Shown here piece by piece: positions 1-63,637 of a stretch of DNA of 64,000 nucleotides. Source of the DNA: a bacterium (GTDB lineage Bacteria > Patescibacteriota > Microgenomatia > UBA1406 > GWC2-37-13); NCBI GenBank assembly GCA_021789995.1, contig JAJYIQ010000001.1, positions 186,001 to 250,000 of the forward strand, read 5' to 3'. The translations under genes were made by a program, and so were the position numbers. The notes below the pieces were generated by a model. It was not told the DNA's origin. It did not search any database and saw nothing but the letters and a program-made list of their open reading frames with translations. Position 1 is the stretch's first letter. Each line of letters starts with the position of its first letter.

Positions 1-1177
1 CGATCGGGTCAAACGGATCTTTTTGGCTAGCGAGGATCGCGTATTCCAACAAGTGATGGTAATCCTCCGGCAATTGCCGGTCACCGGCCGTGATTTTATG
101 GGAACAATTACCGGTACGCATCATCTGTAATTCCATTTTATTAAGGGTCAGCGTCCCGGTTTTATCGACGCACAAAGCCGTCGCCGCTCCCAGTGTTTCG
201 ATAGCGGCGGATTTGCGCGTCAAGACTTTGCTTTTGGAAATTCGCCAGGCACCAAGAGCCAAAAATACCACTAAGATTACGCCGAACTCCTCCGGCAGGA
301 CAGCCATACTCAAACTTAAACCGGCCAAAAAACCCTGTAACCAATGGCCGCGGGTCAAACCAAAAATAACGACAACAAGGACGGAAACGAATATACCGGC
401 GATGGCAAATTTTTTGACGATCTGGCCGGTTTCTTTTTGCAACAGGGTATCTTCTTCGGTGATCGATTCCAATGAACGGCCGATTTTCCCCATTTCCGTA
501 TGGATACCGGTGGCAAATACTCTGGCGATGCCGTGTCCCTGGGTGATCATTGTGCCGGAGAAAACTTTGAACTCATTATTGATTGTTGTTGCAGGTGTCG
601 CGAGTGAGGTGTCTCTTCGAGAAGCGGATTTCCGGAGTTGCCGGAAGAGCCTCGCAGAAGAGAAGGGATCACGAGCGACAGAATCTGCAACAGCATATTC
701 TCTTTTCATTACCGGCAATGATTCACCCGTCAGTAGCGATTCATCCACCAGAAGATTCGCCGAATAAAGCACTACCGCATCCGCCGGCACCCGGTCGCCT
801 TCCTGCAGAACCAGGATATCATCCCGGACTACTTCCCGGCCGGCGATACGCAACTGCTCCCCGCCACGGATAACAAGCGCCCGCGGGCTGGACAAATCCT
901 TCAGCGCTTCAAGCGCTCTTTCGGTTTTTTGTTCCTGGTAAAAAGTGATGCCGACAACGACGATGACAAAGGATAGTAACATTAAGGCATCCCGCGGTTC
1001 GCCGAGAAACAGGTAGATGATGCCACTGCCGATAATTAGAAGCAGCATCGGCTCGGTGATTACTTCCCATAAGATCACCCAAACACTTTGTTTTTTTTGT
1101 TCTGGCAACTCATTATAACCCTCCGCTTTCAGTTTGTCCGCCGCTTCCTTTTCCGTCAGTCCGGTATATTTTGTCAT
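1..1177 (-). CDS. Cation-transporting P-type ATPase (N-terminal part, runs off window)
   Basis: ATP-driven cation pump of the inner membrane, probably of the Ca2+-type (P2) subfamily. The reading frame is open from ATG at 1177 to the window edge, about 392 residues. It shows an N-terminal cation-ATPase domain, membrane segments near residues 40-80, the actuator motif TGES at 150-153, a PEEF membrane motif near 295 (PEGL in classical Ca2+ pumps) and the phosphorylation motif DKTGTLT with the acceptor Asp at 338. The nucleotide-binding part and C-terminal helices lie beyond the edge. A 34-codon palindromic insert (residues about 163-196) sits just after TGES and keeps the frame. Transported ion cannot be assigned from this part. 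Confidence 0.88.
   Translation of the reverse strand, partial: MTKYTGLTEKEAADKLKAEGYNELPEQKKQSVWVILWEVITEPMLLLIIGSGIIYLFLGEPRDALMLLSFVIVVVGITFYQEQKTERALEALKDLSSPRALVIRGGEQLRIAGREVVRDDILVLQEGDRVPADAVVLYSANLLVDESLLTGESLPVMKREYAVADSVARDPFSSARLFRQLRKSASRRDTSLATPATTINNEFKVFSGTMITQGHGIARVFATGIHTEMGKIGRSLESITEEDTLLQKETGQIVKKFAIAGIFVSVLVVVIFGLTRGHWLQGFLAGLSLSMAVLPEEFGVILVVFLALGAWRISKSKVLTRKSAAIETLGAATALCVDKTGTLTLNKMELQMMRTGNCSHKITAGDRQLPEDYHHLLEYAILASQKDPFDPI
589..690. repeat. In-frame palindromic element inside the ATPase gene
   Basis: A 102-base imperfect palindrome (34 codons). The outer arms are TTGCAGGTGTCGCGAGTGA (589-607) and, at 669-690, its near reverse complement; inner arms TCTCTTC...TTCCGG and CCGGAA...GAAGAGA continue the symmetry to a centre near 640. 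It encodes an Arg/Ser-rich stretch between the TGES motif and the conserved VFSGT segment of the pump, where related pumps have a short loop. This looks like insertion of a mobile palindrome that preserved the frame. Confidence 0.7.
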
Positions 1178-1184
1178 TACTATC

Positions 1185-1190
1185 ATTATA
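1185..1190 (-). promoter_or_regulatory. -10 box of the P-type ATPase gene
   Basis: TATAAT on the minus strand, 7 bases before the ATG at 1177. Transcription would start at or within a base or two of the start codon (leaderless). No convincing -35 box is seen. Confidence 0.55.
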
Positions 1191-61607: not shown

Positions 61608-61858
61608 TATACTGGAGATAGCTCGAGGTAGTTGTTATAAACAATTAGCGTGTGGCCCTTCGACTCACTTTTGTTCGCTCAGGGTAAACCCCTTGGTTTA
61701 CACTGAGGAGCAAAGCGACGAAGTGGATACGAGGAGAAGGTTAATCGAATTATCTGCGGGTACCTTCAAGTCGCGGTGGCCGCCTTCAATATTTCCTTGA
61801 AAAAGGGAATAAGCCGCCAGCTACTTCAAAGAGCCTCATTACTAATGACATTTCTATT
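61608..61858 (+). ncRNA. Long structured leader of glmS, possible ribozyme or riboswitch
   Basis: TATACT at 61608 may start a transcript about 240 bases before glmS, unlike most genes here, which look leaderless. GAGGTAGTT (61625-61633) can pair with AGCTACTTC (61819-61827), closing the region. Inside, ACGAGG (61729), GAAGG (61736-61740) pairing with CCTTC (61763-61767), ATCGAAT and CTGCGGGT appear in the order of the conserved glmS ribozyme core, but with several changes. GGTGGC (61775) pairs with GCCGCC (61813). A putative cleavage point would be A61647/G61648. The ribozyme's usual GCGCC start is not matched, so this is tentative. Confidence 0.3.
61659..61722. repeat. Palindrome in the glmS leader
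   Basis: CTTCGACTCA...GTTCGCTCAG...GTAAACC and the inverted GGTTTACACTGAG...AGCGACGAAG form a 64-base imperfect hairpin of the GAGCAAAGCGACGAAG repeat type. It lies inside the predicted glmS leader and would extend one of its helices. Confidence 0.65.
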
Positions 61859-63637
61859 ATGTGTGGTATTTTTGCCGTTATAAACGACAAATCAAACAAT
61901 GCCGGACAAACCATTCGCCAGGGACTGAAACGACTCGAGTATCGCGGTTACGACTCATGGGGTATTGCCGTTCAATCAGATAATAAGATCGATTTAATTA
62001 AGTATGTGGGAGAAGTTGATAAAACCGCTGATAATATTAAGAAATTGCCGAAAAGTATCGTCGGAATCGGTCATACCCGCTGGGCGACAACCGGCGCGGT
62101 GACAAAAATTAATGCCCATCCCCATTATTCCACTGATCGTTCTTTTGTTTTGGCCCAAAATGGGATTGTCGAGAATTACGAAGAATTAAAAAAAGATTTG
62201 ACGCAAAAAAAATATCGGTTCGTTACCCAAACCGATACGGAAGTTATTACCCGGCTTATTGAGGAAGAATTAACAAAAAACAATGACTTATTCTCTGCTG
62301 TCCGACAAGCATTTTTGCAACTAAAAGGCCGCAATACGATCATCATCCTCACCAAAACCGGACAGGTGATTGCCGCCCGCAATGGCTCCCCACTTGTTAT
62401 CGGCTTGAATCCAGAGTCAAACGAAATCTTCATTTCTTCCGACGTTTTGTCTTTTGCCCCTTTTGCCGATAAAATGATCATTATCGACAATAATCAATTA
62501 GTCAACTGTATAAATGGAAAAATTAAAATTTTCGATATCAGATCCGGTCAGGAAAATAAGTACGGGATCGAGAACATCGACATAAAAAATGATAGAGTCG
62601 ACAAACAGGGTTATGCCCATTTCATGTTGAAAGAGATAAATGAAGCACCTTATGTCATTAACCAATTATTAAAACAGGATATCGGCGCTTATAATGAATT
62701 GGCGGCGGCAATTAAAAAAGCCAGAAGTGTGTATACCATTGGTTCAGGGACAGCCGGCGTAGCGGCAGCACAAACGGCTTTCTATCTTCGCGAATATGCC
62801 GGTATAAATGCTATTTACTTAGTCGGCGCCGACGCCAGAGAATATTATGAGTTAATTGATAAAGACGACTTATTTCTTGCCCCTTCCCAGAGCGGTGAGA
62901 CTGCCGACGTATTAGAAGTGCTGGAAGTTGTCAAAAAAAAAGGAGCAAAGATTGCGTCATTTGTTAATATGTCCGGCTCGATGATGACACGGTTATCCGA
63001 CTATAAATTTATGGCCCAATCGGGCCCGGAAATTTGTGTCTTATCAACAAAAGTCTTTGACGCCCAAATCGCCTGGGGTTATCTGGTAGCAAAAATCACA
63101 GCCGGTAAAACCCGGGAAGCTAAAGAAAATCTACGGAATCTTTCCGTCCAGATTGGTAACTATTTGGGAAATAATAAAACAAAAATTCAGGAGCTCGCTA
63201 AATATTTATTAAACGCACACGATATATTTTTGCTGGGTAAGTATCAGAATTTTCAAATTGTTCGAGAGGGAATGATAAAATTGGTGGAGGCGACTTATAA
63301 ACACGCTCATGCCATTCCGGCCGGCGATTTGAAACATTACGCGATTACATTGATGGAACCTGGTGTGCCGGTAATTGTTGTTTCCTCCAACGATAAAGTC
63401 AAATCCGATATTCTTAATACTGTCTATGAGGTCAAAGCGCGGGGAGCACGGGTAATCGGAATTTCCCCGGAATTTGATGAGAGTTTTGATTTTCATCTGG
63501 AAGTACCCGATAGCGGCGAAACCAGTGCCATTTTGAATATTATTCCGTTACAACTCCTGGCGTATTATATTGCTTTAATGTTGGGCAATAATATTGATAA
63601 ACCGCGCAATATCGCTAAAAGCGTGACGGTGAAGTAA
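61859..63637 (+). CDS. glmS: GlmS, glutamine:fructose-6-phosphate aminotransferase
   Basis: Makes glucosamine 6-phosphate from fructose 6-phosphate and glutamine, feeding UDP-GlcNAc for MurA and MurG. The Ntn-type glutaminase starts with the nucleophile Cys2 (MCGIFAVI), with RLEYRGYDSWGIA and GHTRWATTGAV. Two SIS sugar-isomerase domains follow (TIGSGTAGVAA and PSQSGETADVLE), then LLGKYQNFQIVREG and AGDLKHYAITLMEPG. Length 592 is normal. It converges on secA with 2 bases between stops. Confidence 0.97.
   Translation: MCGIFAVINDKSNNAGQTIRQGLKRLEYRGYDSWGIAVQSDNKIDLIKYVGEVDKTADNIKKLPKSIVGIGHTRWATTGAVTKINAHPHYSTDRSFVLAQNGIVENYEELKKDLTQKKYRFVTQTDTEVITRLIEEELTKNNDLFSAVRQAFLQLKGRNTIIILTKTGQVIAARNGSPLVIGLNPESNEIFISSDVLSFAPFADKMIIIDNNQLVNCINGKIKIFDIRSGQENKYGIENIDIKNDRVDKQGYAHFMLKEINEAPYVINQLLKQDIGAYNELAAAIKKARSVYTIGSGTAGVAAAQTAFYLREYAGINAIYLVGADAREYYELIDKDDLFLAPSQSGETADVLEVLEVVKKKGAKIASFVNMSGSMMTRLSDYKFMAQSGPEICVLSTKVFDAQIAWGYLVAKITAGKTREAKENLRNLSVQIGNYLGNNKTKIQELAKYLLNAHDIFLLGKYQNFQIVREGMIKLVEATYKHAHAIPAGDLKHYAITLMEPGVPVIVVSSNDKVKSDILNTVYEVKARGARVIGISPEFDESFDFHLEVPDSGETSAILNIIPLQLLAYYIALMLGNNIDKPRNIAKSVTVK

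Follow-up and report, generated by a model that had tools for sequence, protein, structure and literature searches.

In-frame palindromic inserts have so far been seen mainly as a peculiarity of Rickettsia and Wolbachia, with scattered REP cases elsewhere. The Rickettsia palindromic elements (RPE) are short palindromes that lie in frame within unrelated genes (PMC10969869, PMC3733652), and the RPE sequences of R. conorii carry the tetranucleotide CGTC at one end (PMC3733652). Bacterial MITEs and enterobacterial repeat units such as ERIC, RU-1, RU-2 and RU-3 are about 100–170 bp long, with inverted repeats, open frames and some intragenic fusions (PMC2759123, PMC10969869), and in the palindromic amphipathic repeat coding elements (PARCEL) segments of protein are encoded by palindromic DNA (PMC2996958).

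The window analysed here, a stretch of 64,000 nucleotides, comes from a genome of 0.9 Mb and holds, among others, ftsZ, ftsA, ftsW and murG-like genes. It also has a match to the glmS ribozyme (Rfam RF00234, 41.3 bits, cut-off 37) at 61636–61820, directly upstream of glmS (61859–63637); the P1 loop of this ribozyme contains an additional hairpin, about 50 nt long, and its host is a genome of the Candidate Phyla Radiation (CPR). In the first gene of the window, an initial annotation had described a palindrome at 589–690, inserted in frame in a P-type ATPase directly after the catalytic TGES loop, and had likened it to RPE. The features of this locus, with boundaries between 7-bp arms and a 92-nt core set by eye within 587–692, are the following.

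587 to 692, no strand: inserted palindrome of 106 bp, arms plus core, recognised by its hairpin fold and its absence from orthologues.
587 to 593, plus strand: left outer arm TGTTGCA, copy-specific (read from the sequence; arm statistics over 49 copies).
594 to 685, plus strand: conserved 92-nt core of type A, GGTGTCGCGAGTGAGG...CGAGAAGCGGATT-hairpin-AGAGCCTCGCAG...CACGAGCGACAGAATC (31-copy alignment, covariation).
686 to 692, plus strand: right outer arm TGCAACA, complementing the left arm (sequence; arm statistics over 49 copies).
2 to 1186, minus strand: host gene, a P-type cation-transporting ATPase, which runs past the window start and contains the element in frame at about residues 167–200.

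The palindrome is real by fold statistics: 589–690 forms a single imperfect hairpin of -46.8 kcal/mol, against -30.4 (s.d. 3.5) for shuffled sequences (z = -4.7), and with the full arms of the wider 587–692 the fold reached z = -6.7. A general repeat finder returned no long exact inverted arms at 589–690, because conserved bulges and mismatches make the palindrome imperfect. Its insertion in frame was likewise confirmed, since the minus-strand open reading frame 2–1186 stays open across the insert as far as the DKTGTLT motif, and the complete pump gene is intact in the genome (859 aa). The insert does lie near TGES, but it begins about 10 residues past that motif, in a variable surface loop of the A domain, rather than directly after it.

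As the initial annotation had supposed, the pump has orthologues without the insert. In the same genus, the pump of G001 (85% identical) has the sequence LPVVKNENESSVFSGT at this place, and the orthologues of G019 and G027 (64–65% identical) also lack the segment, while the alignment with the calcium ATPase lmo0841 in the PDB (9euq) is interrupted exactly between pump residues 170 and 207. The loop from LPV to VFSGT counts 48 aa in the window pump, compared with 8 aa for G001 and about 22 aa for both G019 and G027; subtracting the 34-aa insert thus brings the 48 aa down to a normal 14 aa. In the structure model of the pump (mean pLDDT 79) the fold is predicted to be intact, and the low values at residues 167–202 (pLDDT <50) would fit, as expected, a disordered loop.

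The element is a dispersed repeat confined to a narrow lineage. The home genome holds four copies, three clear and one shortened, which answers the search for further copies that the initial annotation had suggested; BLAST found the element in 12 of 96 relatives, and a covariance model built from 31 copies found it in 30 of the 72 genomes of the family (Ca. Roizmanbacteria), all genomes compared being draft MAGs. A class-wide covariance search matched 15 of 373 genomes, 14 within the family and one, weakly, in the same order, and a phylum-wide search matched one of 380, namely the home genome. The exact core pattern occurred in 21 stretches among 84,980 species genomes, all of them from Ca. 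Roizmanbacteria or the same-family MAG DBS2-5.bin32, and the viral contigs searched for the element gave no match. Moreover, the same segment as a conserved domain in distant relatives, the observation that the initial annotation had named as contradicting an insertion, was not found. Among the papers listed by searches of an open-licence library, none was found to describe in-frame palindromes in CPR or Roizmanbacteria.

Aligned copies have conserved ends and a modular interior. The ends GGTGTCRCGAG and GAGYGACAGAATC are common to all forms, which differ in what lies between them.

Type A: the interior of the window copy.
Type B: AGGGATCCC..CAGCGCGCAG..GAGCACTGGCGGGAA.
Type C: a module of greater length, containing AGCGAAGG.
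Short forms: little interior.

Conserved bulges and tandem G-A mismatches recur in the stem of the aligned copies, and its pairing is upheld by covariation: 96% of cells were paired, with 170 two-sided changes, and the covariation score was 0.477 versus 0.167 in shuffled alignments and at most 0.119 with the partner slid, a comparison somewhat biased towards the structure because this was derived from the same alignment. The outer arms are mutually complementary, vary in sequence from copy to copy and measure 3 to 12 bp, the minimum of 3 bp being set by construction, as the copy catalogue demanded at least three paired arm bases. Among 49 copies there are 34 different 8-base left arms, and pairing beyond the first two bases amounts to a mean of 5.8 further pairs, versus 0.4 at random places; some arms (AAAAAGTA, TTTTTATA) recur within a lineage. 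The joint change of the two arms could come from selection for the hairpin, as DNA or RNA, or from a repair process in which one arm serves as the template for the other.

Two sister species differ at a shared locus (L313 and L133) that lies upstream of a transporter gene: G051 has a type C copy there and G043 a type B copy, with differing arms. This suggests either a hot spot or an exchange of interiors while the conserved ends stay in place. Two further dispersed repeats of the g20 genus were found as multi-hit flanks (L168 and L174); one has GGGATCCCTCCCCTTTTCGGGGACTCCC and the other resembles the type B interior with different ends.

An open reading frame scan placed 20 of the 49 catalogued copies within long open frames, a count made partly by eye from a script that lists open frames only, and one that includes gene duplicates, copies common to sister species and L067, which probably lies only upstream of its gene, the 5' extension of the frame there being likely false. 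These approximately 20 in-gene copies are all open and all in frame, and by eye no gene-breaking copy was seen in the neighbour lists. Besides the P-type ATPase, the hosts include peptide deformylase, tyrS, fmt, miaB, acs (acetyl-CoA synthetase), transketolase, asparagine synthetase, glycosyltransferases, membrane glycosyltransferases and a methyltransferase, named from sequence motifs and orthologue alignments rather than by per-gene database assignment. In the peptide deformylase of G011, the copy lies between GVGLAAPQVG and EGCLSIP/QHEVDH with every motif intact.

The core lengths of the in-gene copies are evenly spread modulo 3 (7, 7 and 6), yet the reading frame is restored in every case; the insertion taken as a whole must therefore make up for the core length, which fits selection for frame. 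Phase 0 of the plus strand was open in 95% of the in-gene copies, 62% of the other copies and 37% of shuffles; on the minus strand the values were 85%, 90% and 48%, respectively. The fold z was about -5.6 for in-gene and intergenic copies alike, and both orientations relative to genes occur. The asparagine synthetase of G054 (L388) has an in-frame stub coding only for approximately SIDSVTRDTS, at the position occupied in G006 by a type B copy of full length; this stub is perhaps a decay intermediate.

Empty sites were found for several copies. The acs of G051 is without the element and without both arms, and similar empty sites emerged when the methyltransferase copy of G048 was compared with G007 and an intergenic copy of G020 with G106; thus, at these sites at least, the arms arrive with the insertion. 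Derivation of the arms from pre-existing palindromes serving as the target was rejected for acs and one intergenic copy, where the empty sites have no arms. A clean target-site duplication was not seen and the junction could not be placed, because the closest empty sites, about 70–80% identical, are too diverged.

The loops of MiaB, acs, TyrS and a GT1 glycosyltransferase carry other, sequence-unrelated palindromes in sister species (TyrS: G107, z -8.3, G048, z -6.4, and G007, z -3.6; acs: G016, z -6.3 and -7.3; GT1: G006, z -5.2, and G097, z -3.7), and the same loops are short in other species. These loops are therefore permissive and used by several palindrome families. The acs copy of G017 is still in frame although its hairpin has largely decayed (z -1.6). 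In several species, the MiaB loop (L211, L213, L214, L216, L217) contains the peptide SVIPNEVRDL, coded by a repeat of the GTCATCCCGAACGAAGTGAGGGATCT type, which looks like another dispersed palindrome family, presumably translated in frame.

The search for a mobilising enzyme centred on Y1-type transposases, whose co-occurrence with the element is weakly informative because their genes are present in 52 of the 72 family genomes. Many Roizmanbacteria have several RAYT-like Y1 transposases per genome, each about 215 aa long (L365, L367, L373, L376, L379, L381, L383, L384) and flanked on one side or on both by hairpins of the CTAACC-TCGTA-GGTTAG form or a similar one. The element gave no match around 20 such genes, so that RAYT as its mobiliser was rejected as far as adjacency goes; the genes inspected are flanked by their own, different hairpins (CTAACCTCGTAGGTTAG and similar). 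The TyrS of G107 has an in-frame hairpin of this RAYT-flanking kind, and a RAYT-like role in palindrome movement is therefore plausible in general. Among about half a dozen unpaired ends examined in the 72 genomes, none was part of a longer, autonomous element sharing these ends.

Compared with the known systems, the element comes closest to RPE: both are short palindromes of a reduced-genome lineage, inserted in frame in unrelated housekeeping genes with a preferred open phase, in proteins that are otherwise intact. However, the Roizmanbacteria element has no sequence kinship with RPE, its core pattern being confined to Roizmanbacteria and the one same-family MAG; it lacks the CGTC tag, the aligned copies ending in arm-AGGTG... 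and ...AATCT-arm; and it belongs to another phylum and combines a modular interior between conserved ends with copy-specific complementary arms. The parallel drawn by the initial annotation thus holds for the mode of working, with about 20 open in-frame copies in unrelated genes, and not for shared sequence or the tag, and the element is best read as a new family, RPE-like in how it works without being an RPE member. With the GTAG REP/RAYT system it shares dispersed hairpins, some of them intragenic, in genomes where RAYT-like Y1 genes are common, but it measures about 106 bp against 20–40 bp for REP, has GTAGG in only part of the copies (others have GCAGG, GATAGG or ATAGG) and does not adjoin the RAYT-like genes, which have other hairpins. 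Like MITEs, ERIC and RU, it appears non-autonomous, falls within about 100–170 bp and is built on inverted repeats, with open frames and some intragenic copies; among the ends and the diverged empty sites examined, neither a parent transposon with the same ends nor a target-site duplication was found for it, and its in-frame use in core enzymes is far stronger. PARCELs share the coding of protein segments by palindromic DNA, but are tandem 25-residue amphipathic repeats of membrane or surface proteins, in contrast to the single inserts in diverse enzymes described here.

We regard the insert in the pump as probably one copy of a mobile palindromic element that is lineage-specific and non-autonomous, that survives within a gene only where it keeps the frame and brings no stops, and that would be translated. 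A different origin, in which an ordinary loop became hypervariable by drift and the palindrome is a chance product of local composition, could appeal to the widely varying loop lengths of the orthologues, but is hardly credible: in many genomes this sequence turns up again, both within genes of unrelated kinds and between genes, with similar fold z in both settings, and the exact end motif had at least 60 matches in the 72 family genomes versus none for the reversed control. For the element as a whole, a chance or drifted loop is refuted by these dispersed copies.

It could also be proposed that the element is mainly a structured RNA that persists because of its fold, be it a terminator, a processing site or a regulatory hairpin, with the in-gene copies as by-products. 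The strong covariation, with its high share of paired cells and two-sided changes, agrees with such a role, as do the conserved bulges and tandem G-A mismatches, needless in a simple DNA palindrome, and the A-run/T-run arms of some intergenic copies, which resemble terminators. We nevertheless consider it unlikely, since Rfam gave no match at the gathering cut-off nor at E up to 1, the position relative to neighbouring genes is inconsistent and both gene orientations are found, the copies are few and patchily distributed among genomes, and a DNA hairpin intermediate explains the pairing equally well. Much less probable still is the loss of the segment before or during translation, by intron-like excision or ribosome bypassing, so that the enzymes are made without it. 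Essential enzymes are among the hosts and a strong hairpin delimits the segment, which might lend this some appeal; however, such a process does not require every in-gene copy to be open in frame, with core lengths spread evenly modulo 3, and the decayed acs copy of G017 has lost its hairpin and kept the frame.

If the insert is a mobile palindromic element, as we favour, it would insert at many places and, within genes, persist only when in frame and stop-free, mostly in exposed loops, frame-breaking copies presumably being removed by purifying selection. The element may move as a hairpin, either single-stranded DNA or a cruciform, recognised by a transposase acting in trans, perhaps of the Y1/RAYT type. 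The insert would then be translated as an extra, probably disordered segment, which may affect enzyme function. After insertion the palindrome may decay with the frame kept, as the acs copy of G017 suggests, so that what began as a DNA parasite ends up as ordinary protein sequence. A broader picture, in which several unrelated mobile palindrome families re-enter the same core-enzyme loops, are translated, are remodelled by interior swaps and upkeep of arm complementarity, and form an ongoing source of new segments under a mobilisation system other than the known REP/RAYT pair, is offered only tentatively and seems to us rather doubtful.

That an independent family occurs in bacteria of the Candidate Phyla Radiation, where it lies within essential enzymes and returns to the same loops, suggests that small genomes can adopt mobile hairpins time after time as parts of their proteins. 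Comparison of sister species that have the insert with others that lack it makes two questions testable: whether the segment alters the enzyme, and how a palindrome holds its two arms complementary as their sequence changes.
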